A stretch of DNA of 59,818 nucleotides from a virus: positions 1 through 59,818 of the IMG/VR virus record IMGVR_UViG_3300020400_000007; one strand, 5' to 3'. The position numbers and the translations under genes were made by a program. The notes beneath the pieces are model-generated. The model made no database searches. It was not told the origin of the DNA and was given only the letters and a program-made list of their open reading frames with translations. Shown one piece after another: positions 5,431 to 55,634 of the stretch (positions are counted from its first letter, which is position 1; the number at the start of each line of letters is the position of its first letter).

Positions 5431-5438
5431 TATAAATA
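5431..5438 (+). promoter_or_regulatory. Late promoter TATAAATA
   Basis: A perfect match to the T4 late promoter -10 element, TATAAATA, lies 27 bases upstream of the ATG at 5465. Such promoters are recognised by RNA polymerase carrying gp55, which is encoded in this window at 44745. Confidence 0.7.
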
Positions 5439-17744: not shown

Positions 17745-19778
17745 TTAACTTGCTAGAAATGTGTTTTCTCCTGCGTATATAATATAGTTTACAGTCATGT
17801 AAGGATTCATTATATTAAATGAATTACCTAAACTACTGTTTGTCAACACACCACCTGAAGTAGGATATGCCTGGCCTGCACCTGTGCCTGTTGGAGCATC
17901 ATAAGTTATACCCTGTGGATCGTTTGGAGTACCTGTTACATCTCTAATTGTGTAATATTGATCTCCACTTGGTCCTCTTAAATCGTGTTCGTGTTCTGGT
18001 AGATTGCCTGTTGATAAAGTTTGTGTTTGCTGTCCTGATACACTACCTAGTGTGTCTGCCGCTGAATCTGTAACAACATTTGCACTTCCACCGCCCATGT
18101 TATCTTTACCTAATGCAACTCTACCTCTTAAATCAGGTAAAGCAAATTTTCCTGCACTAACCAAAGATTGATCTTTAAATCCGTATTCTATTACATTAAA
18201 CAAATTTTGATAGTCTGCAATAAACACTTCTTGTCCATAACACAATAACCAATTAGCCGGAGCAACTGTGCCTCCATATGGAGTAATCATTCCTACTGGT
18301 AAAGTTGGTATTGCTTTGAACAGGTTTGTTCTTGATATTTTATAAACGCCTGTATCACCAGCTGTTCTGTTTATTAATAGTTCATCTGTTGATACTGAAT
18401 CTGAAACTTCTGTTTTATTACTAATGAAAGCATTTGAAATACTTGTTGTAAATGTTTTTGTTGAGGCATCCTGTCCATCAAAAGTAAATGAATTAGCAGT
18501 AACATCTCCTGTCATTTGGAATGTTGTAGAACTTGCTAATTTATCTGTTGAACCTGATCTACCTGATACTGTACCTGTTACGTTTCCTGTTAGGTTTCCT
18601 ACAAAATTTTGTGCATAAACATTTAACCATTGTTCGTTTGTTGTACCAAGATTTCTTGTTGTTGAAGCATTAGGTACAATGTTACCTGTTGTAAGTAAAC
18701 CAGCAACATTTGTGTCACTGCCTACAAAAAGTTTTTTAGCAATCCCAACACCACCTTTTGTAATAATACTTCCTGTGTTGATTGTTGTTGCGTCTGTTGT
18801 ACCGTCTACTAATAATGAATTAGAAACTTGTATGTTTCCTGTTACATCTAATGCTTGGTCTGGTGATAAATTATTAATTCCAACTTTTGCAGTTGAATCA
18901 ATTCTCATCACTGTTTCTGTTGTTCCGTTGTTGTTAACTCTTATGTCAATATTTGATCCTGAAGTTTGGTGACTAATTACACCAGCTTGTCCTTCAACAC
19001 CTACTGTCATAAAACTTGAAGCACCTACTGTGATACCACCGTTGTTTTTTACAGTGATAGGAAATAAACTTTGTGATAAAGCATCGTTACGTATAAAGTT
19101 ACTTGCAGGAATAGTTTCATTTCCAATTACAAGTGCTTCTGCTTTTTCCGCCACACCATAATATTTTCCTGCACCTGCTCCAGTAATATCTGCTGTGCTT
19201 AAATTAAATCCTGGCTTGATGGTTGTAAATCCTTGAATAGTTGTCTTTGGTGTAAATGCCGCTGTGGCATATATAGCCAATGTCTTTGCACTTACTTCTA
19301 CAATCAAACAAGTGTATGAAACATTGTTAGTTCCAACAATAGCTGTTGCTCTAACACCTGTTGAAAGTCCATCACTAAACGTTGGACCTACTAACACCCA
19401 ACCTGATCCTGTGTACAAGTAAAGTTGTTGATTGTCTGTGTCTACCCAAAGGTCACCTGTCACTGATTGTGCGGCACCTGGGGCATTGGTTGCTTTCTTT
19501 AATCCTGATGCACTTATCCAAGTTGTACCATCATAAAGTTTTAATTGATCAACACCTGGTGTATTATCATACCAAAGTTGTCCTTCAACTGGATTGCCTG
19601 GTGCTGAACTATTTGTAAAATTCTCTAATAGATGTAAAAAGTTTTCAGCAATGGCTGTACCATATGCCGTTGTATTTCTACCTGGTATTGACAAAGACGT
19701 TTGTTGGTTGATAGTATTGTCTTCAACACTAATACTACCTTTATTAGCAACGTCTGTGTAATTTACAGTATAAGCCAT
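17745..19778 (-). CDS. Tail fibre-like protein C with phage tail collar domain
   Basis: The 677-residue protein has the same N-terminal domain as A and B (SIPGRNTTAYGTAIAENF, GQLWYDN, LKLYDGTTW). Its C-terminal ~180 residues contain a tail-collar-type domain: LPVGMITPYGG, NWLLCYGQEV, FALPDLRGRV, a GNLPEHEHD histidine cluster and NPYMTVNYIIYAGE. In T4 short fibres (gp12) and related proteins this domain folds as a trimer and may hold metal through the histidines at the receptor-binding tip. It is preceded by a GAGG ribosome site three bases after the gene at 19782-20396. Confidence 0.82.
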   Translation of the reverse strand: MAYTVNYTDVANKGSISVEDNTINQQTSLSIPGRNTTAYGTAIAENFLHLLENFTNSSAPGNPVEGQLWYDNTPGVDQLKLYDGTTWISASGLKKATNAPGAAQSVTGDLWVDTDNQQLYLYTGSGWVLVGPTFSDGLSTGVRATAIVGTNNVSYTCLIVEVSAKTLAIYATAAFTPKTTIQGFTTIKPGFNLSTADITGAGAGKYYGVAEKAEALVIGNETIPASNFIRNDALSQSLFPITVKNNGGITVGASSFMTVGVEGQAGVISHQTSGSNIDIRVNNNGTTETVMRIDSTAKVGINNLSPDQALDVTGNIQVSNSLLVDGTTDATTINTGSIITKGGVGIAKKLFVGSDTNVAGLLTTGNIVPNASTTRNLGTTNEQWLNVYAQNFVGNLTGNVTGTVSGRSGSTDKLASSTTFQMTGDVTANSFTFDGQDASTKTFTTSISNAFISNKTEVSDSVSTDELLINRTAGDTGVYKISRTNLFKAIPTLPVGMITPYGGTVAPANWLLCYGQEVFIADYQNLFNVIEYGFKDQSLVSAGKFALPDLRGRVALGKDNMGGGSANVVTDSAADTLGSVSGQQTQTLSTGNLPEHEHDLRGPSGDQYYTIRDVTGTPNDPQGITYDAPTGTGAGQAYPTSGGVLTNSSLGNSFNIMNPYMTVNYIIYAGENTFLAS

Positions 19779-44744: not shown

Positions 44745-45575
44745 ATGAAGAGAATTAATTATCTCAATAATAGAGATATACTGGCGGAGATACATAAGTC
44801 AAAAAACACGTTTTGTAGTTATACAGACGATGATTTCGCCCAATATGATATAATTTTACCTAGTATTGAAAAGGTTAACATAAGAACCATAGCAGATGCC
44901 AAAAGAAGCCGTGCAAAACGCATGAGTTTGGCGGATTATGAGAAAAGAAAAGCAGATGGTGAACGTGTCAAGCAGGCAGATTGCGCCGTAGACTACAGAA
45001 AAATAGCAAAAACTGACGTTGTTTTCCGAATTATGACCTATGATCATATTCCAGAAGAAAAAGGTAGAAAGAAAAATCCTAAAAACGTAGCAGACACAAA
45101 GACAAAATTAAACTTTCCCCCATTCCAACATTACAAGTTTGATGACAACGACAAGTTGGTGTGTGTAGGCAAAAGCCATTGGGAAGGCGGAATGGAGAAC
45201 GGCAGTTTCAACAAGGCTCACGGCATGGCAACCAACAAACTTGCTATGATGTGGATGAAACTATGTGAACGATATGCAACAAGAGGTAATGTAAGAGGTT
45301 ATACTTACAACGATGAAATGAAAGGACAAGCTATTCTACAACTTACACAGATTGGTTTGCAATTTGATGAATCAAAGTCAAACAATCCTTTTGCATATTA
45401 CACAGCCGCAGTGACTAATTCGTTTGTAAGAATTATTAATATTGAAAAACGTAACCAGAACATACGTGATGACATATTAGAAATGAATCACATGAATCCA
45501 TCTTTTACAAGACAGAACCAAGGTGTTTGGGAACGTCAAGCAAAAGAGGCATACAACGAGGACAAAAAAGATTAA
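44745..45575 (+). CDS. 55: RNA polymerase late sigma factor gp55
   Basis: The C-terminal half (MWMKLCERYATRGNVRGYTY, NDEMKGQAILQL, QFDESKSNNPFAYYTAAVTN, SFVRIINIEKRNQNIRDDIL) is the conserved sigma-like core of gp55, which recruits RNA polymerase to TATAAATA late promoters. The N-terminal ~130 residues include a basic region (AKRSRAKRMSLADYEKRKAD) absent from T4 gp55 (185 residues against 276 here). I chose ATG at 44745 because GGAG lies six bases before it; the upstream TTG at 44733 overlaps that site. It is first in an operon driven by a sigma-70 promoter at 44660-44688. Confidence 0.88.
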   Translation: MKRINYLNNRDILAEIHKSKNTFCSYTDDDFAQYDIILPSIEKVNIRTIADAKRSRAKRMSLADYEKRKADGERVKQADCAVDYRKIAKTDVVFRIMTYDHIPEEKGRKKNPKNVADTKTKLNFPPFQHYKFDDNDKLVCVGKSHWEGGMENGSFNKAHGMATNKLAMMWMKLCERYATRGNVRGYTYNDEMKGQAILQLTQIGLQFDESKSNNPFAYYTAAVTNSFVRIINIEKRNQNIRDDILEMNHMNPSFTRQNQGVWERQAKEAYNEDKKD

Positions 45576-46591
45576 TGTTTAAGAAAGCGGCAGTATTTAC
45601 AGACATTCACTTTGGACTGAAGTCTAATTCTAAGGTCCATAATGATGACTGTGAAGAATTTGTTGATTGGTATATAGAACAAGCAAAAGAAAACGGTTGC
45701 GAAACTGGTATCTTCTGTGGTGACTGGCATCACAATAGAAACAGTTTAAATATGCTCACCATGGACGCAACCATAAGAAGTCTTGAAAAACTTGGAAAAG
45801 CATTTGAAAAGTTTTACTTCTTTCCTGGCAACCACGACTTGTATTACAAAGACAAGAGAGATATCAACTCAATTGACTTTGCAAGGCATATCCCAGGCAT
45901 CACTATGGTCAATGAGATGATGACCGAAGGCGATGTTACTTTAATCCCATGGCTAGTTGGCGATGAATGGAAGAAAATTCCTAAAATAAAAAGCAAATAC
46001 ATATTTGGACACTTCGAACTTCCAAACTTTTATATGAATGCTATGGTTCAGATGCCTGACACAGGCGAACTACAAGCTGATCATTTTAAAAATCAAGAAT
46101 ACGTGTTCAGTGGACACTTCCATAAACGCCAAGTCAAGGGACCTATTCATTACATTGGTAACGCATTGCCACACAATTACGCTGATGCCTGGGATGATGA
46201 ACGTGGTATGATGGTGTTGGAACATGGTGGAGAACCACAATACATCAACTGGTGGAACTGTCCTAAGTATAGAACTGTGAAACTATCAAGACTGCTTGAT
46301 GAAAAAGAAACATTGTTAAAAAGCAAGATGTATTTGAGAGTAACACTTGACTTGCCTATTAGTTATGAAGAAGCAAACTTTATAAAAGAAACATTTATCA
46401 ATCAATACAAGTGTAGAGAGATATCACTAATACCAAATACACAGGAAGAAGAAATTAATTCAGACATAGACATTACAAAATTTGAAAGTGTTGATGAAAT
46501 AGTGGCAAAAGAAATAGAAGCAATAGAGTCAGAACAGTTTAACAAAAGCAAACTGCTACAGATATACAGAGATTTGAACAAAGATGATTAG
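45575..46591 (+). CDS. 47: Recombination endonuclease subunit gp47 (Mre11-like)
   Basis: The metallophosphoesterase motifs are all present in order: TDIHFG (D10, H12), GDWHHNR, GNHDLYY and SGHFHKR. gp47 is the nuclease partner of gp46 in the T4 equivalent of Mre11-Rad50, which processes DNA ends for recombination-dependent replication. The start at 45575 overlaps the gp55 stop (TAATG); a start 48 bases earlier is possible in frame but would lie in the gp55 gene and remove this coupling. The length of 338 residues matches T4 gp47 (339). It overlaps gp46 by eight bases. Confidence 0.92.
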   Translation: MFKKAAVFTDIHFGLKSNSKVHNDDCEEFVDWYIEQAKENGCETGIFCGDWHHNRNSLNMLTMDATIRSLEKLGKAFEKFYFFPGNHDLYYKDKRDINSIDFARHIPGITMVNEMMTEGDVTLIPWLVGDEWKKIPKIKSKYIFGHFELPNFYMNAMVQMPDTGELQADHFKNQEYVFSGHFHKRQVKGPIHYIGNALPHNYADAWDDERGMMVLEHGGEPQYINWWNCPKYRTVKLSRLLDEKETLLKSKMYLRVTLDLPISYEEANFIKETFINQYKCREISLIPNTQEEEINSDIDITKFESVDEIVAKEIEAIESEQFNKSKLLQIYRDLNKDD

Positions 46592-48356
46592 AATACAGGA
46601 CTTAACAGTTAAGAATTTTATGAGTGTAGGTAACACTACACAGGCAGTCGACTTCAACAAGCAACAACTTACATTGGTGTTAGGTGAGAACTTGGACCAA
46701 GGTGGTGATGACAGTGGGTCAAGAAACGGTACAGGTAAGACCACAATCATCAATGCACTGAGTTATGCGTTATATGGACAGGCACTAACCAACATAAGAC
46801 GTGATAACTTGGTCAATAAAACAAACAACAAAGGTATGTTGGTGACACTTGCCTTTCAAAAAGGTGGTAAAGAATACAGAATAGAAAGAGGACGTAAACC
46901 TAACACACTTAAATTTTACATAGATCAGAAAGAACAAGAACTTACAGATGAAAGTCAAGGTGATTCACGTAAAACGCAAGAGGATATTAATGACTTGTTA
47001 GGTATGAGTCATGATATGTTCAAGCATATTGTGGCACTTAACACTTACACAGAGCCTTTCTTAGCACTAAAGCCCAATGATCAACGTGCTATAATAGAAC
47101 AACTACTTGGTATTACAATACTTTCTGAAAAAGCTGACTTGTTAAGAGAAGCAACAAAGATTACCAGAGATAGACTCACTGAAGAAAACGCAAAAATACA
47201 AGCAATCACAAACAGCAACGATAAGATCAAAGAAAACATTGACAGATTGCACAGCAGGAAGAAGGCTTGGATTGCACAAAACAAACAAGACAGAGATAAA
47301 CTAGACAAAGCCATACGTGAACTTGAACAACTTGACATTGACAGTGAACTTGAAGATCATGAAAAACTAAAAACATGGACTGAAGATAGCAAACATCTTG
47401 CAAACTTAACAAAAGAACGTGCTACTGTTGAACGTGCATTAGAACAAGCAGATAATAACGTAAACAAACTAGGTAAAGAGCTTGATGAACTTGAAACTGC
47501 CAAGTGTTATGCTTGTGGACAAGAACTGCACGATGACAAACTTGAAGAAATGAAGGACAAGTTACAAAAGGATTATGGTGATGCAACTGTCTATCAATTA
47601 AGCATGGCAGAAAAAATGCAAAAAGTTGAAAAACTAATTGAGGAAATTGGCACATTAGATTCTAAGCCAAACACATTTTATGAAACTGCCAAAGAAGCAT
47701 ATCAACACAGAAGTAATGTTGACAGTTTGAAACAAAGTCTCAAAGATAAAACAGATGAACTGGATCCATACTCCGAACAAATTGATGATTTAGAAAAAAC
47801 TGCAATACAAGAAATCAATTGGGACACAGTTAACGAACTTACTGATACAAAAGAACATCAAGACTTCTTGTATAAACTATTAACCAACAAAGATTCGTTT
47901 ATTAGAAAGAAAATTATTGATCAAAATCTTGCATACTTGAATAATAGACTTACACATTATTTGGATAGGCTACAACTGCCACACTCTGTTGTGTTTAAAA
48001 ATGACTTATCTGTAGAAATTACACAGCTAGGACAGGATTTAGACTTTGACAACTTATCAAGAGGTGAAAGAAACAGACTTATACTAGGATTAAGTTGGGC
48101 ATTTAGAGATGTATGGGAAAGTTTATATCAAAACATCAATTTACTGTTTATTGATGAGCTTGTTGATAGTGGTATGGATGCAAATGGTGTAGAAAATGCC
48201 ATTGGTGTATTGAAGAAAATGGGTAGAGAACGACAGAAGAACATTTATCTGATATCGCACAAAGAAGAATTAGCAAGTCGTGTTACAAACGTGTTGAAAG
48301 TAATCAAAGAAAATGGATTTACTTCATATGATAATGATGTAGAGGTAATGACATAA
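46584..48356 (+). CDS. 46: Recombination endonuclease subunit gp46 (Rad50-like)
   Basis: The protein has a Walker A motif GTGKTT with Lys52, a long coiled coil on each side of a zinc hook CYAC (C308, C311), an ABC signature LSRGERNRL near residue 491, a Walker B LLFIDEL near 523 and a SHKEEL switch near the C-terminus. This order is diagnostic for Rad50/SbcC-type ATPases. With gp47 it resects double-strand ends during recombination. At 590 residues it is close to T4 gp46 (560). The next gene starts at the last base of its stop codon (TAATG). Confidence 0.93.
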   Translation: MIRIQDLTVKNFMSVGNTTQAVDFNKQQLTLVLGENLDQGGDDSGSRNGTGKTTIINALSYALYGQALTNIRRDNLVNKTNNKGMLVTLAFQKGGKEYRIERGRKPNTLKFYIDQKEQELTDESQGDSRKTQEDINDLLGMSHDMFKHIVALNTYTEPFLALKPNDQRAIIEQLLGITILSEKADLLREATKITRDRLTEENAKIQAITNSNDKIKENIDRLHSRKKAWIAQNKQDRDKLDKAIRELEQLDIDSELEDHEKLKTWTEDSKHLANLTKERATVERALEQADNNVNKLGKELDELETAKCYACGQELHDDKLEEMKDKLQKDYGDATVYQLSMAEKMQKVEKLIEEIGTLDSKPNTFYETAKEAYQHRSNVDSLKQSLKDKTDELDPYSEQIDDLEKTAIQEINWDTVNELTDTKEHQDFLYKLLTNKDSFIRKKIIDQNLAYLNNRLTHYLDRLQLPHSVVFKNDLSVEITQLGQDLDFDNLSRGERNRLILGLSWAFRDVWESLYQNINLLFIDELVDSGMDANGVENAIGVLKKMGRERQKNIYLISHKEELASRVTNVLKVIKENGFTSYDNDVEVMT

Positions 48357-48573: not shown

Positions 48574-48996
48574 ATGCACTGGACATATCAAGACAAAATC
48601 GTAGAATCATTACCTGAAGACTGTGAAGCATTTGTGTATCTTATCACAAATACAACCAATGGTATGAAATATGTCGGTAAAAAACTAGCAAAATTCAGAA
48701 AGACAAGGCCACCTCTTAAAGGCAAGATAAACAAACGTAGAAGCAAAGTTGAAAGTGACTGGAGAGACTACTGGGGATCATCAGATCACTTGCAATCAGA
48801 CGTAGAAAAATTAGGCACAGATAAATTTACCAGAGAAATATTACATTATTGTCCAAGCAGAGGCGTAGCAAGTTATCTAGAGGCTAGGGAACAGTTTGAA
48901 CGCAGAGTGTTAGAAACAGATGAATACTACAATGGCATTATAAACGTGAGAGTAGGCGGATCTAAATTACTTAAAGAAGCACTCAAAGGCAAATAA
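48574..48996 (+). CDS. GIY-YIG-like nuclease domain protein
   Basis: This 140-residue protein has FVYLITN and KYVGKK, the two strand motifs of the GIY-YIG fold, with a basic segment between and after (KFRKTRPPLKGKINKRRSK), WRDYWGSS and a helix containing EAREQFERRVL that may hold the catalytic glutamate. Related short proteins in T4-like phages are usually called GIY-YIG endonucleases. It lies last in the gp55-gp47-gp46 operon and immediately before the structured noncoding region at 48997, which raises the question of a mobile RNA-nuclease pair. A resident role in DNA processing is equally possible. Confidence 0.65.
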   Translation: MHWTYQDKIVESLPEDCEAFVYLITNTTNGMKYVGKKLAKFRKTRPPLKGKINKRRSKVESDWRDYWGSSDHLQSDVEKLGTDKFTREILHYCPSRGVASYLEAREQFERRVLETDEYYNGIINVRVGGSKLLKEALKGK

Positions 48997-49291
48997 CAAA
49001 TTCTATATAGCAACATTGTTTGGTCGGGATAGCTCGACTCACCTTGAGGTCATACGGATCTTATGACTAGAACTGGTGCGTTGCAAGGTTAATACTAACT
49101 TAGGTATTAAAAGATCGTGGCTCTGAGAAAAAGCAACCACAACGTTAACACATTTTGCTTAACTAGGGTGTGTTAGTGTTCCGTAACTTATGCGAAGGCT
49201 GAAGTAGGGGGTTGACGGGTTACCGCCTCCACGCAGAAATGCAATCTTCTTAGTTAAGATGGTAAGCTCATCTTACATGATGGCAACATAT

Positions 49292-49313
49292 CTTTGCCCG
49301 GAGACGGGCGAAG
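49292..49313 (+). other. Hairpin with GAGA tetraloop
   Basis: CTTTGCCCG pairs with CGGGCGAAG around the loop GAGA (a GNRA loop), with one G-T wobble. The stem is stable for this AT-rich genome and has no following T run, so it is not a typical terminator. Confidence 0.75.
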
Positions 49314-49317
49314 TATG

Positions 49318-49381
49318 GCTCAACTATCTACATGATAGCAGTTGCTTCGCAACTTATCATATACAATATAATGTGTTGAGC
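49318..49381 (+). other. Nested long stem with bulged hairpin
   Basis: GCTCAAC at 49318-49324 pairs with GTTGAGC at 49375-49381. Inside, ATGATA and AGTTGC (two-base bulge GC between them) pair with GCAACT and TATCAT around the triloop TTC. Nested pairing of this kind is unlikely by chance. Confidence 0.7.
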
Positions 49382-49396
49382 GACAGCGATAACACA

Positions 49397-49414
49397 GATG
49401 AGCTTTAGCTCATC
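49397..49414 (+). other. Terminal hairpin GATGAGC-TTTA-GCTCATC
   Basis: A seven-pair perfect hairpin at the 3' end of the noncoding stretch. The arm GATGAGC could instead pair with an identical GCTCATC copy at 49266-49272, so the region has two exclusive foldings. Confidence 0.65.
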
Positions 49415-49416
49415 TA

Positions 49417-49611
49417 CTAATGCAATTCGGGATTACGTCCAAGTCGAAATGCATCTTTATCATAAACAACAATCTCCTTGACTTCGTAACTTTTGCCAGG
49501 ATTACAATCGATCAGTGTTTGTATGACGGAAAACGCTTCTCCATCAGAATCACACTGAATAACGATCTTGTCGTCGCCGCACTCTACGATATTATATTTC
49601 GTCGATGGCAT
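49417..49611 (-). CDS. Small protein, 64 residues, opposite strand
   Basis: I take ATG at 49611 as the start: the frame stays open further upstream, but that part is antisense to the late promoter and the gene at 49676. The protein MPSTKYNIVECGDDKIVIQC continues with a predicted helix (EAFSVIQTLIDC) and a strand (YEVKEIVVYD). No family is recognised. A CTAAATA sequence at 49617-49623 lies only six bases before the ATG, too close for the usual leader, so the expression signal is doubtful. It ends at the edge of the structured RNA region. Confidence 0.45.
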   Translation of the reverse strand: MPSTKYNIVECGDDKIVIQCDSDGEAFSVIQTLIDCNPGKSYEVKEIVVYDKDAFRLGRNPELH

Positions 49612-49645
49612 AAGAGTATTTAGAGTATATAGATGATCAATTATG

Positions 49646-49653
49646 TATAAATA
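49646..49653 (+). promoter_or_regulatory. Late promoter TATAAATA
   Basis: A perfect T4-type late promoter 23 bases upstream of the ATG at 49676, followed by AGGAGAG as ribosome-binding site. It would drive the two Ala/Gly-rich genes at 49676 and 50267. Confidence 0.8.
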
Positions 49654-49675
49654 TAAAGTAACAGGAGAGTAAACC

Positions 49676-50257
49676 ATGAAAATAACGCAAATAACAAGCA
49701 CAGATGCAGTTAACGAAGCTCCTGGTGGTAGTGCATTAGGTAACATAGCACGTAAAGTAGGCGCAAAAGTGGCTGGCGCCGTTGGTGCCAAAGGCACCGC
49801 CGCTGGAATGACTGGAAAAGTTGACGCAAACAAACGTGCCAAAGAAATATTCACACAATATCGTCAGTATATGGGACAAACGGGTGGCAATCCTAAAGCA
49901 CCATCTGTAAACGCCTTACAGGACTTTATGCAAAAGCAAGGTCTTTCTACCACAAGACTTAAAGGAATGCAAGGACAAATAACTCCAAAACAGGTCGATG
50001 ATATTTTACAAAAAACTGCACAGGATACATTCAAAGGTGATCTTGGCAAAGCACAGGCAGGAACTGATGATGAAGCACCGCAAACACTAGGACAAAAATT
50101 TGGTGGTGGCGATAAGCCAGCAGGCGGTACAGCTCAAGCAGATGCTCCAGCAAGTGGCGGAGCTCAAGGTGGTGCAGGAGGGATTCCGGCAAACATACAA
50201 AAGGCAATCGACAGCTTGAATCCAAAACAAAAGCAAGAACTTGTAAAATTATTGTAA
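49676..50257 (+). CDS. Probable virion protein, Ala/Gly-rich, 193 residues
   Basis: The N-terminal third is Ala/Gly/Lys-rich (ALGNIARKVGAKVAGAVGAK), followed by a more ordered segment (KEIFTQYRQYMGQ, NALQDFMQKQGLSTTRL, TPKQVDDILQKTAQDTF) and a Gly/Ala/Pro linker leading to a short C-terminal helix (ANIQKAIDSLNPKQKQELVK). I do not recognise a family. The strong late promoter and pairing with the 865-residue gene nine bases downstream point to a particle component, perhaps head-internal or injected. The helix at the end is similar in style to repeats in the 865-residue neighbour. Confidence 0.55.
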   Translation: MKITQITSTDAVNEAPGGSALGNIARKVGAKVAGAVGAKGTAAGMTGKVDANKRAKEIFTQYRQYMGQTGGNPKAPSVNALQDFMQKQGLSTTRLKGMQGQITPKQVDDILQKTAQDTFKGDLGKAQAGTDDEAPQTLGQKFGGGDKPAGGTAQADAPASGGAQGGAGGIPANIQKAIDSLNPKQKQELVKLL

Positions 50258-52864: not shown

Positions 52865-53094
52865 AAGAAAGGCATACTTGTCTTTTTAGCAACCTCAAGG
52901 TTTGCTTTGACAAGTTTTGCAAATATTTCTCTATCTTCAGGACCACACGCATACATTTCGTCAAGAGTCACTCCACCCCTCATATACCATACTAATTGTG
53001 CAAGGTCATACTTGAAGTTTTTTGTCTCTTTATCTAGTGCGTCAACTTCTTTTAGGATCTCTTCGAGAGACTTACTTAAGATCCTTATGCGAAA
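52861..53094 (-). CDS. gp26 -1 frame extension, no start codon
   Basis: A 77-codon open frame follows gp26 in the -1 frame. It has no ATG, GTG or TTG until codon 38, and that codon lies inside a well-formed motif (LAQLVWYMRGGVTLDEM), so independent initiation is unlikely. The C-terminus (REIFAKLVKANLEVAKKTSM, then PFF) looks like the small chaperone-type ORFs found after gp26 in T4-like phages, as I recall. The best explanation is a -1 ribosomal frameshift at 53091-53100, giving a gp26-extension fusion similar in plan to the G/GT tail assembly chaperones of lambda-like phages. Its end overlaps by three bases the convergent plus-strand gene. Confidence 0.72.
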   Translation of the reverse strand, partial: FRIRILSKSLEEILKEVDALDKETKNFKYDLAQLVWYMRGGVTLDEMYACGPEDREIFAKLVKANLEVAKKTSMPFF

Positions 53095-53100
53095 AAATTT
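53055..53100 (-). promoter_or_regulatory. Candidate -1 frameshift signal in gp26
   Basis: In the gp26 frame the bases TCA AAT TTT TTC GCA TAA contain two overlapping heptamers of X XXY YYZ form, A AAT TTT and T TTT TTC. After a six-base spacer (GCATAA, including the stop), GGATCT (53079-53084) can pair with AGATCC (53055-53060), with a smaller TCTC/GAGA stem as alternative. Slip site, spacer and stem are all as expected for programmed -1 frameshifting. Confidence 0.68.
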
Positions 53101-53948
53101 GACTGATCAAAAGTAATTGGAACTTCGAACGTTTCAGGAGCACCTGCTTCACGTTCTTCTTCAGTTGTTTCTATCTTGAAAGGTTTAGTATCAAACTTTT
53201 GTTTCTGTGCTGACAAATGATCAACAACAGAAGTAAAGAAAGTTTTATCACCTTTGGCAATAAATTCAGCAATATGATCTTTATCCGCAACCACTGTATC
53301 ACCAACTTGTATTTGTGTGATAGAATTAGTTACCATATCAATAGTAATGTTTGTAAGTTTATTAAACGACTGTGCAAACATTTCAAGTTTTTCTGTATCT
53401 GATATTGTTTGATCATTTACAACTGTATTGATTCTTTGTTCTTCAAAAGTCTTGATAGCTGTTCTTGTAAACTCTCTGTATGTTTGAGGTCTTACTGTGA
53501 TAGACATCTCGTCAACTTTTAACAATGAGTCATAAGTTACATTTTGATATTTGTCTAACAGCATTCTTAAATCAAGATCAAATGCTCTATCTGTACCAGC
53601 ACCTGGTACCTTAGTTTTGATTTCTAGTTTTTCACCATATGTTGCTATTCTGATTGCGATTAACAAAGCATCTACATCAATCGTTGGCATATTCCAAGCA
53701 TCTTTGATATTTGGAAAACAGCTCTGTACAACTGTCACAACAGATTGTCCGTTTAACAAAGCATCTGGTGTTTTAAATGCAAGTTCATCTTTGGCCGTCA
53801 TAGCAAACACTGGATACTCACCGTTCTCAGTTTTCTCAATAGCGCCTTCAGGATACCAGTTACCATTGCTTGGTAAATTGATATAAATTTTAGGCTGTCT
53901 AAAATATTTCTGTAACGGGTTTGGTCCTGTCTGTTTTATATTAGGCAT
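53085..53948 (-). CDS. 26: Baseplate hub protein gp26-like
   Basis: This 287-residue protein has the signature of the T4 baseplate gp26 family: YINLPSNGNWYPEGAIE, FAMTAKDELAFKTPDALLNG, VVQSCFPNIKDAWNMPTIDV, DALLIAIRIATYGE and, near the end, VVDHLSAQKQKF. In T4, gp26 is needed for hub formation. The gene is expressed from a late promoter at 53986-53993 with GGAGAA before the ATG. Its 3' end carries a probable -1 frameshift cassette joined to a start-less ORF, so part of the product may be longer. Marine relatives of T4 have the same order beside hub genes, but here it stands apart from the main baseplate operon. Confidence 0.83.
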   Translation of the reverse strand: MPNIKQTGPNPLQKYFRQPKIYINLPSNGNWYPEGAIEKTENGEYPVFAMTAKDELAFKTPDALLNGQSVVTVVQSCFPNIKDAWNMPTIDVDALLIAIRIATYGEKLEIKTKVPGAGTDRAFDLDLRMLLDKYQNVTYDSLLKVDEMSITVRPQTYREFTRTAIKTFEEQRINTVVNDQTISDTEKLEMFAQSFNKLTNITIDMVTNSITQIQVGDTVVADKDHIAEFIAKGDKTFFTSVVDHLSAQKQKFDTKPFKIETTEEEREAGAPETFEVPITFDQSNFFA

Positions 53949-54020: not shown

Positions 54021-54584
54021 ATGGCTGATTTATTTTACGATATAAAGAATTACACAGATTTTGAAAAATTGGACAAGGCAAGAGTCATGATCAAGCAAGA
54101 ACTTGACGCTTTTATCAAAGATTATGCAGTTGTCCAAGAAATTGGAATGGATTTTGACAGCTATTATAACACGGGTATCAAGGATAATTGGCGTACTATT
54201 GCTGTAAAATTAGGAGATAATCAAGATCCTGTTGAACACGCAGATAAGTTTCCTAACACATTAGAAATATTAAGTGAATGCAAAGGAGTTGAAAACTTCG
54301 GCATGAACTTTGTAAAGCCCTATGGCCGTATAATGCCACACACTGATCCCGAAGTAATAGTTGATGGCAAAGAAGTGCCATTCATAAATTGTTTGGCTGG
54401 AGTTGTGATTCCTTCACCTAATGTACATAAATGTGGTATGATGTTTGACAACAAAGAAGTATATGTAGCAGAGGGAGAATGGGTTACGTTTTTGCCTAGC
54501 ACAAAACATTCTGCCTGGAACTATACTGATCATTATAGATTAACTTGTATGTCAACTATTAATTTAGAATATTTCTCTTCTTAA
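54021..54584 (+). CDS. Aspartyl/asparaginyl beta-hydroxylase-like oxygenase
   Basis: The 187-residue protein has PHTDPE with the HxD pair H107 and D109, a glycine-rich strand (CLAGVVIPSPNVHKCGMMF), the distal histidine candidate H163 in STKHSAWN and an arginine after H171 (DHYRL) that may bind 2-oxoglutarate. This is the fold order of aspartyl/asparaginyl beta-hydroxylase-like Fe(II) enzymes. Such enzymes hydroxylate protein side chains. It runs opposite to its neighbours, divergent from gp26 and ending in a 21-base overlap with the amidinotransferase gene. The promoter is not clear. Compare with the oxygenase at 1096-1713, which lacks close similarity outside the motif. Confidence 0.7.
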   Translation: MADLFYDIKNYTDFEKLDKARVMIKQELDAFIKDYAVVQEIGMDFDSYYNTGIKDNWRTIAVKLGDNQDPVEHADKFPNTLEILSECKGVENFGMNFVKPYGRIMPHTDPEVIVDGKEVPFINCLAGVVIPSPNVHKCGMMFDNKEVYVAEGEWVTFLPSTKHSAWNYTDHYRLTCMSTINLEYFSS

Positions 54585-55634
54585 TCCTGCTCTACCTACA
54601 TCAAGTGTTAAACAATGTATGCCGGCTTCCCAATATGTGCCGTGCCTGATAGGAACATAATCACAATCAATGTTGTGTTGTTTTAAGTATTGAAACAGTT
54701 CTGGAATATCTCTGCTAAACAAAATACAATCGTGATCTAAAACTAAAACATTTGTGTCAAAGGATATTTCTTGGTCGTATCCTCTCCACTTATCTAAGTA
54801 TGTGTCCAACCATTGTTCGCTGTGCATTCCGCCTGTTGCGTTTAGATCTTTTTTGTAATCTTCCAACATGGTCATATGATCTTTGAGATATTGACCTATC
54901 TCAATTATTTTTTTATCTTGTAGATAGCTTGGTATCCATGCCTTGTGATCACAGATAATAGTTTCATCGTTAACAAAAAAGAATCCATGATCTATGTGTC
55001 CCCAACCGTTCATTACGGTGCTATCATTTGCAACTATTTCAACTTCTGTAATATTTTTTTTGCACCACTCTAATCCTTTTTGTGTGCCTGGACCTTGTGT
55101 GTTTGTAATTAGCTTGTCGCCTGTTTTATACATTGTAGCAGTATGCCATAACACTTTGTCTTTTAACTTGTTGTGATAAATGTCCTTGCCACCGTTCCAC
55201 CATTTGGTTGTTGGATCTAAACTTATAAGTTGAGGACTTGGTTGTGCTATCCAGTTGTAACCTAAGTCGTTAAAACATTTATAAAAACTATGTCCATCAA
55301 AGTATCTGTCTGTCAAACTTGTATACGTTTGATATATTGTTTCGTTTATTACAATATATTGATCTCTTGGCACCATAGGACTGTTAGGAAACCTGATATC
55401 AAAACTTGGTAATGTTGTGCGTACTGGATCGATAGTCTCAGGACGTCTAATATGACAACCATAATCTTTGAGTTTGTTTGTAAGTGCTAGTAAGTCTTCT
55501 TTTGTTTCTTCTAGAATTAAGTTAAAATTATCTGTTGTTTTTCCAGGAGGTAATAAATGATCAAAACTGCCAGGACTATGACAGTCACCAACAATAACAT
55601 CTGTAAGTTTATCCCACTCTGTCCAAATCGCCAT
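54564..55634 (-). CDS. Amidinotransferase (glycine/inosamine type)
   Basis: The 356-residue protein has the pentein-fold catalytic residues: GWGHIDHGF (H213, D215), NSPMVPRDQYIVI and the C-terminal GIHCLTLDVGR with nucleophile Cys341. The GxHCxTxDxxR form is nearest to L-arginine:glycine or inosamine-phosphate amidinotransferases, not arginine deiminase. The reaction moves an amidino group from arginine through a cysteine adduct to an amine, giving ornithine and a guanidino compound. In a phage this is unusual; the acceptor is unknown. It overlaps the small gene upstream by 26 bases and the convergent oxygenase gene by 21 bases. Confidence 0.85.
   Translation of the reverse strand: MAIWTEWDKLTDVIVGDCHSPGSFDHLLPPGKTTDNFNLILEETKEDLLALTNKLKDYGCHIRRPETIDPVRTTLPSFDIRFPNSPMVPRDQYIVINETIYQTYTSLTDRYFDGHSFYKCFNDLGYNWIAQPSPQLISLDPTTKWWNGGKDIYHNKLKDKVLWHTATMYKTGDKLITNTQGPGTQKGLEWCKKNITEVEIVANDSTVMNGWGHIDHGFFFVNDETIICDHKAWIPSYLQDKKIIEIGQYLKDHMTMLEDYKKDLNATGGMHSEQWLDTYLDKWRGYDQEISFDTNVLVLDHDCILFSRDIPELFQYLKQHNIDCDYVPIRHGTYWEAGIHCLTLDVGRAGLRREIF

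Follow-up and report, generated by a model that had tools for sequence, protein, structure and literature searches.

A structured, pseudoknotted noncoding RNA behind the gp47-gp46-nuclease genes of metagenomic T4-like phages and its kinship with Polynucleobacter-1 (RF01718)

A structured noncoding RNA of about 410 nt is encoded on the plus strand of a 59.8-kb virus record with T4-like genes, from a phage known from metagenomes only (IMG/VR record IMGVR_UViG_3300020400_000007; positions refer to the whole analysed stretch of 59,818 nucleotides, here termed the window). The existence, strand, core structure and kinship of this RNA are well supported. Its reading as one architecture, itself unassigned, of a larger RNA that is catalogued in part, inferred from sequence comparison, is supported as well; the catalogued part is the Rfam family Polynucleobacter-1 (RF01718). 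A first-pass annotation of the DNA had interpreted the stretch as structured noncoding RNA, possibly of a new or unassigned class. The former interpretation is supported; of the latter, the unassigned architecture stands, whereas the 3' core and the genomic slot turn out to be common to RNAs bearing RF01718. As to function, we favour, at a rough probability of 0.4 and as an inference without transcript data, a free-standing RNA that acts in trans via a partner reading two identical heptamers, R1 and R2.

Locus and noncoding character

The RNA has a SegE-type GIY-YIG nuclease gene on its upstream side and, downstream, a small convergent gene. Its ends are inferred from conservation, and relatives with longer spacers appear, by eye, to be conserved only from about the RNA 5' end. 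The labels type A, which includes the window RNA, and type B were coined in this analysis. The features of the locus are:

45527-46591: gp47-like recombination nuclease subunit (Pfam)
46584-48356: gp46-like recombination nuclease subunit (PHROG)
48574-48996, plus strand: SegE-type GIY-YIG nuclease, upstream neighbour, outside the RNA (PF19835, E 8.7e-34)
49007-49417, plus strand: structured RNA of type A, about 410 nt
49417-49614, minus strand: small convergent gene, without family match
49646-49653, plus strand: TATAAATA, late-promoter-like site (sequence motif) before the next plus-strand genes
53085-53948, minus strand: T4 baseplate protein

The small convergent gene, homologues of which are found in 8 of the 80 listed gp46 loci, separates the RNA from the next plus-strand genes. 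TATAAATA, which resembles the T4 late promoter, stands in front of the next gene in the same direction as the RNA and behind the RNA itself; the only other plus-strand copy in the window is at 5431. The GC level of the RNA (42.4%) is higher than that of the whole window (35.8%) and of the preceding 1000 bases (35.4%), as had been remarked, but hardly so in comparison with the following 1000 bases (41.0%), against which the remark does not hold. A marine habitat of the phage is a guess from its closest named relatives.

Some annotations of the window deserve mention in their own right. The nuclease gene at 48574-48996 is named NAD synthetase by PHROG 447 vs SegE GIY-YIG by Pfam; many related phage records carry the former name, probably as a misannotation that has spread. 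An aspartyl/asparaginyl beta-hydroxylase gene (54021-54584, plus strand; PF05118, E 2.9e-14) is a possible auxiliary metabolic gene, and the 356-aa protein encoded at 54564-55634 (minus strand) looks amidinotransferase/arginine deiminase-like by eye, without a match in Pfam or NCBIfam.

A hidden protein gene in the RNA stretch is ruled out: stop codons occur in every plus-strand frame of 28 relatives (8.5-9.5 per sequence), 442 of the 491 internal gap runs in their alignment are not multiples of three, and no frame is conserved. The claim that the stretch encodes no protein is thus confirmed, and a conserved frame, which would have refuted the interpretation as RNA, is missing from these relatives. 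The many inverted repeats reported for the stretch are reflected in a plus-strand fold of -132.4 kcal/mol (z -5.16), which none of 100 shuffles equals; the minus strand reaches z -2.96, likewise with 0 of 100 shuffles equally low. Fold energy alone is, however, weak evidence, because one of 40 control windows (18301-18731, within a gene) comes close to the RNA in the same test (z -4.68 vs -4.92). Chance folding is, hence, rejected on covariation and not on fold energy. As an observation apart, the antisense of the 677-aa gene at 18301-18731 folds like the RNA (z -5.15 in a further run). The plus strand is favoured because it folds better than the minus strand and because kept G-U pairs, which would be A-C on the other strand, are present: pairs 21-28 and 217-236 of alignment A1 (described below) stay G-U in 18 and 24 of 28 sequences.

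The Rfam covariance search that had been proposed as a check returned no family, neither in the whole window at gathering scores nor in 48900-49700 at E up to 10, and ARAGORN found no tRNA or tmRNA in the whole window or in 18 relatives. In agreement with the earlier judgement by eye that the stretch is no tRNA, tmRNA or intron core, there is also no Rfam match to a group I or group II intron. A ribozyme or a decayed self-splicing intron could account for the double-pseudoknot core and for the adjoining homing-type nuclease gene (TIGR01453, 23.1 bits, below the cut-off of 56.05), but without any Rfam family, in a stretch that is intergenic in the surveyed loci with no interrupted gene, and in a fixed slot instead of scattered insertions, such an origin is very unlikely.

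Covarying helices and two pseudoknots

Covariation was assessed in alignment A1 of 28 window-type sequences, that is, 29 representatives drawn from 60 distinct near-complete sequences with the incomplete L123 left out; from alignment A2, L123 as well as L146 and L133, which carry inserts, are left out. The structure written by hand for A1 comprises 95 pairs including two pseudoknots. In A1, 93.0% of its 2587 cells are paired (shuffled 79.6%), double changes occur in 54 of the 95 pairs (36.5 on average in shuffles; 4-16 in slid controls), and double-change cells amount to 361 (shuffled 116.6; slid 16-47). With respect to further pair types, the A1 structure does not rise above shuffles, 121 of 500 of which reach the same. 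RNAalifold, which draws no pseudoknots, arrives at 85 pairs, 38 of them with double changes.

The second lineage matters because the structure was fitted to the A1 sequences, which favours it over the slid controls. Alignment A3 is composed of 29 of the 34 Polynucleobacter-1-pattern loci that have a model match (L284, L289, L290, L292 and L318 are left out), and the same five core helices were transferred to it by eye on two rows. The 29 cores are 95.3% paired, with double changes in 22 of 32 pairs (slid 4-9) and 128 double-change cells (slid 10-18). Both predicted pseudoknots recur in this second, Polynucleobacter-1-type lineage. Compensatory changes across homologues, the absence of which would have spoken against a structured RNA, are therefore strong and extend over two lineages. 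The helices of the window RNA, all on the plus strand, are the following (percentages are paired cells; double changes are given per pair):

49010-49084, plus strand: 5' domain closed by P1 (49010-49014/49080-49084), P1 100% paired
49022-49028/49033-49039, plus strand: P2, 100% paired
49040-49043/49075-49078, plus strand: P3, 100% paired, double changes in 4 of 4
49049-49054/49062-49067, plus strand: P4, its two parts 92.9% and 75.0% paired
49091-49108, plus strand: P5, weak hairpin, 65.4% of cells paired, columns shifting between relatives
49117-49140, plus strand: P6 hairpin, outer four pairs 100% with double changes in 3 of 4, inner two invariant
49146-49152/49169-49175, plus strand: P7 hairpin, in the pseudoknot region 49146-49258, 77.6%; second-lineage hairpin 94.4%
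49158-49166/49250-49258, plus strand: pseudoknot helix La, from the P7 loop, 96.4%, double changes in 6 of 9; second lineage 92.6%
49183-49187/49219-49223, plus strand: helix x of the second pseudoknot (49183-49230), 100%, double changes in 3 of 5; second lineage 99.3%
49201-49204/49246-49249, plus strand: helix y, enclosing z and v, 100%, double changes in 3 of 4; second lineage 93.1%
49207-49211/49226-49230, plus strand: helix z, crossing x, 100%, double changes in 2 of 5; second lineage 100%
49233-49235/49240-49242, plus strand: hairpin v, 97.6% paired
49257-49263/49323-49329, plus strand: possible 7-pair helix enclosing R1 and the GNRA hairpin, pairable in 173 of 196 cells (28 relatives)
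49292-49313, plus strand: GNRA-capped hairpin of nine pairs, located between the heptamers R1 and R2, with 100% of cells paired (28 sequences)
49341-49353, plus strand: hairpin T1, 95.0% paired, double changes in 3 of 5
49373-49395, plus strand: hairpin T2, outer pairs 55.7%, inner two 100%
49396-49415, plus strand: 3'-terminal hairpin T3, 100% paired, double changes in 6 of 8

In the three weak helices P5, P7 and outer T2 (65%, 78% and 56% paired), the arms may be poorly aligned or the helices may be wrong. For the 5' arm of T2, RNAalifold predicts an alternative pairing with GCTCAAC (49318-49324), which is invariant and without double changes; this modelled alternative cannot be excluded.

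The GNRA-capped nine-pair stem of the first-pass annotation is fully borne out, with a GAGA loop in the window and GCAA or GGTA in relatives. The nested stems described around it hold in part: a 7-pair stem encloses the bulge-extended GNRA hairpin in the centroid fold, but the extension is poorly kept, its four pairs beyond the bulge (49287-49290/49314-49317) being present in 23, 5, 4 and 5 of 28 sequences. The 7-pair stem overlaps La by two bases and was excluded from the 95-pair structure; since its 3' strand is invariant, it is neither supported nor refuted by covariation. That the stem is lost in relatives was considered and rejected on the pairable cells given above.

Genomic slot and kinship with Polynucleobacter-1

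The RNA follows a gene order, gp47-gp46-small gene-nuclease, which is found in metagenomic T4-like phages. A search with the GIY-YIG protein yielded at least 80 IMG/VR loci, and nhmmer with the gap alone as single query detects homologous DNA in 64 of the 80 listed (E up to 0.01). A pattern of 23 nt taken from the 3' portion of the RNA matches 109 viral stretches; the GIY-YIG gene ends 310-388 nt upstream of it in 105 of these, and the other four hold only 67-304 nt. In a gp46-based search (at least 80 loci), a GIY-YIG gene, whole or cut, lies behind gp46 in 79 of the 80 listed, and the single locus without it has only 517 bases of tail. The counts are not independent, given that the three locus sets share contigs. 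Most distinct loci with enough DNA have a gap of about 380-580 nt behind the GIY-YIG gene, without a shared frame, and the gene next after the gap varies in kind and direction. The slot, thus, looks vertically inherited rather than mobile. One locus (L044, 3427-3870) is, by eye, an apparent chimera of a window-type 5' domain and a type B rest, which suggests domain exchange by recombination.

When two RNAs of type A, one of type B and two of the Polynucleobacter-1 type were compared with cultured phages by blastn, there was no match or there were matches at E 2-5 only, and one Polynucleobacter-1-type RNA had no match in plasmids; the RNA is found in many metagenomic phages and in no cultured phage record searched. 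A description of the window RNA was not found in a literature search, from which subscription papers were mostly absent.

Kinship with Polynucleobacter-1 became evident from two loci, L057 and L047, in which the 3' half matches the window-type profile and the 5' side is RF01718 (139 and 145 nt; 87.1 and 59.4 bits). A pattern of the RF01718 motif matched at least 120 viral stretches, 78 of the 120 listed containing the window-type 3' core by DNA profile. The Rfam threshold for RF01718 is passed by 20 of 20 loci in one set and by 7 of 8 in another, the sole miss, L302, starting inside the motif. Another 52 matches of the pattern, in genome_contigs, look like chance and were discarded, none having a GIY-YIG gene or the 3' core.

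A covariance model that rests on window-type cores alone (26 of them) matches 52 of the 84 other loci tested (E up to 0.01), in all 52 cases in the expected stretch. These matches comprise all 36 Polynucleobacter-1-type loci and 16 of the 48 remaining ones; the 32 missed are mostly type B. The 84 loci are a subset of 386 viral loci, the tested sets overlap (e.g., L001, L097 and L194 are on the same contig), and the 36 of 36 is no recall rate, as a prior detection of the core by the DNA profile was the reason for choosing most of these loci. The model has no match at E up to 1 in 60 controls (52 genome stretches and eight cultured-phage stretches).

The window itself does not match the RF01718 model (threshold 37 bits), even at E up to 10 in 48900-49700. 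What it has in common with the loci bearing the motif is the 3' core and the slot, both outside the Rfam definition; the model (141 positions) covers the 5' third only, and homology of the type A 5' domain to it is not shown. In the 2010 description, the table row for Polynucleobacter-1 gives Burkholderiales and fresh water/estuary and, as far as this row goes, names no phage, nuclease or 3' core. Nothing beyond that description was found in the literature, again with subscription papers mostly outside coverage.

The neighbouring nuclease invites the interpretation that the RNA is a cofactor or guide partner of the GIY-YIG enzyme, like HEARO/omega RNA or TnpB reRNA, in which a structured RNA adjoins a nuclease gene. 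In addition to the close linkage in the 23-nt pattern loci, a GIY-YIG gene lies within 1 kb in 111 of the 120 listed Polynucleobacter-1-pattern loci (its end within 250 nt upstream in 104, at 857-938 nt in seven more), and Y25, Y36, G38, E106 and N123, which we presume to be the expected active-site residues, are kept in at least 181 of 183 proteins. Among the nine loci without such a gene within 1 kb, L325, L345, L370 and L375 have it 1063-1920 nt upstream, and L302, L332 and L361 offer only 0, 32 and 616 nt of upstream DNA; hence, L279 and L288 remain. Both exceed the RF01718 gathering score, with no GIY-YIG gene in 4.6 and 9.5 kb upstream. In L279, the place of the GIY-YIG gene is taken by another nuclease:

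L279, 3963-4481, plus strand: PDDEXK_15 nuclease (Pfam 2.5e-29; PHROG 244, RusA-like resolvase)

In L288, the protein before the RNA ends, by eye, like this nuclease. The substitution again by a nuclease can be read in favour of a partnership; it hints at a need for a structure-specific nuclease in this slot, e.g., a Holliday junction resolvase. The requirement for an RNA-guided nuclease, that the nuclease always stands beside the RNA, is not met: apart from L279 and L288, genes of 257-324 aa lie between GIY-YIG gene and RNA in seven loci (L277, L293, L298, L305, L370, L375 and L391), and L325 has the same nuclease-RNA spacing as these. Conversely, eight cultured phages have a GIY-YIG homologue without the RNA. 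The RF01718 search was negative in all eight (a run without any positive match), no window-type core occurs in the stretches concerned, and seven of the eight, all but the unannotated V45v66, have annotated gaps of no more than 207 nt after the gene. The RNA differs from HEARO/omega RNA and reRNA in that its neighbour is of the GIY-YIG or PD-(D/E)XK kind and that it occurs without a GIY-YIG gene. A cofactor or guide role is quite unlikely on these grounds. Since the GIY-YIG gene is replaceable and separable, and its homologues occur without the RNA, the RNA is read as a gene of its own.

The marine phage Melnitz, which carries a tmRNA with a glutamine riboswitch according to PMC9004378, likewise combines a structured RNA with a related GIY-YIG protein (71%). 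In contrast to it, the window has neither tmRNA nor riboswitch (ARAGORN, Rfam), and the gap behind the GIY-YIG gene of Melnitz is 148 nt.

Twin heptamers and possible modes of action

The 3' core contains the same seven-base word twice, 55 bases apart:

49275-49281, plus strand: heptamer R1, ACATGAT (site scan of relatives)
49330-49336, plus strand: heptamer R2, ACATGAT (site scan of relatives)

From 368 stretches scanned, 330 match the profile, and both sites could be placed in 305 of these (180 distinct). R1 equals R2 in 176 of the 180 distinct sequences, the other four differing at one position; shuffled R1/R2 pairing gives a mean of 25 and a maximum of 43 identical (1000 shuffles). It has to be considered that the profile was built from sequences chosen for identical heptamers and that the count requires both sites, so that single-copy loci are outside its scope. 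The boundary of identity is sharp, with seven positions at 0.98-1.00, and copying between the sites is unlikely because their flanks differ (CTC vs TCT). With the heptamer columns excluded from a FastTree tree, parsimony yields 38 changes for positions 0, 1, 2 and 4, all of them joint, and 14-17 for position 6; the word changed about 40 times. Errors or poor resolution in a tree of about 120 columns may make the changes appear too numerous but would not make them appear joint.

A complementary partner did not show up nearby: the reverse complement of the word is not enriched in the RNA (1 of 176 vs shuffled 4.2) or in the flanking few kb (67 vs 70.2, sd 8.1), and neither strand of the word is enriched in this flanking DNA. 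In the GIY-YIG protein, no column varies cleanly along with R; the best normalised score, 0.69, falls on a ragged column at the C-terminus. This is a further point against the nuclease as partner. In an alignment conditioned on identity, the 110 highest-ranking column pairs of the core contain R columns only in combination with their twins. A stem presenting R1 in a hairpin loop has weak support (85 of 183 with at least four pairs vs 67.8, sd 5.8).

The simplest reading, which is an inference, is one partner that reads both R1 and R2 and evolves with them; because it would evolve together with them, this partner is probably phage-encoded. A more general rule of like-with-like covariation, by which the heptamers must match, via one co-evolving phage partner or via same-base strand contacts, can be put forward only tentatively and with considerable doubt.

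Seven identical base pairs varying jointly are also the behaviour of a strand-exchange site. Sites of tyrosine recombinases have identical crossover cores that are free to vary if both vary, and R1 and R2 might, thus, be 7-bp crossover cores of a DNA-level element, such as a replication origin or recombination site. The strand-specific G-U pairs and the RNA-type covariation contradict this, leaving it the most improbable of the explanations considered.

Identical sites could, furthermore, serve repeated contacts in a self-assembling RNA scaffold like GOLLD or ROOL, with which the window RNA shares large size, pseudoknots, phage origin and unknown function. According to PMC12286853, Rfam includes both, and GOLLD has a conserved 3' region and a freer 5' region, as is the case here. 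The window RNA is, however, only about 410 nt long, half the size of GOLLD, is in another slot, has no tRNA genes in its window and matches neither the GOLLD nor the ROOL model of Rfam there. Plain R1-R2 kissing is excluded because R1 and R2 are identical rather than complementary and because common words such as AGATAAT and GGATGAA are not self-complementary. A scaffold is, therefore, unlikely.

More weight has to be given to a cis-acting 3' element that ends, stabilises or processes the gp47-gp46-nuclease mRNA at the convergent/late border, a possibility that we rate as rather unlikely without dismissing it. The RNA lies downstream of the gp46 genes wherever it is found in gp46 loci, and T3 at its end covaries. 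In part of the type A loci, the RNA directly adjoins the stop codon of the nuclease gene, which counts against a free-standing RNA because it also fits a cis element of the mRNA. TATAAATA follows the RNA in the window and, by eye, in L205 and L216. Yet no terminator-like site was found at the RNA 3' end, with no U run after T3, unrelated genes precede the RNA in some genomes, and 410 nt with two pseudoknots and twin heptamers exceed, in our judgement, what a terminator or stabiliser needs.

According to the favoured trans-acting mechanism, the RNA would arise either as the 3' portion of the gp47-gp46-nuclease transcript or by transcription from a promoter of its own, although no such promoter is shown, and would fold by itself and work in trans. 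Its 3' core would present the recognition word twice to a single, co-evolving, phage-encoded partner, which may be a dimeric RNA-binding protein or an RNA with the complementary word. By docking or titrating this partner, it might act at the changeover from the expression of replication genes to that of structural genes; the RNA sits at the genomic border of those gene sets.

With these results, an orphan motif of 2010 would become the 5' domain of a phage RNA of about 400-500 nt. For this larger RNA, the genomic slot is defined, there are 5' architectures other than the motif, and the pseudoknotted core can be tested. If the like-with-like rule is true, it would be an RNA recognition rule that complementary-pair covariation misses, in a molecule whose Rfam coverage is the 5' third of one lineage. 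The twin heptamers offer a direct handle on function, and a reader of both is to be expected.
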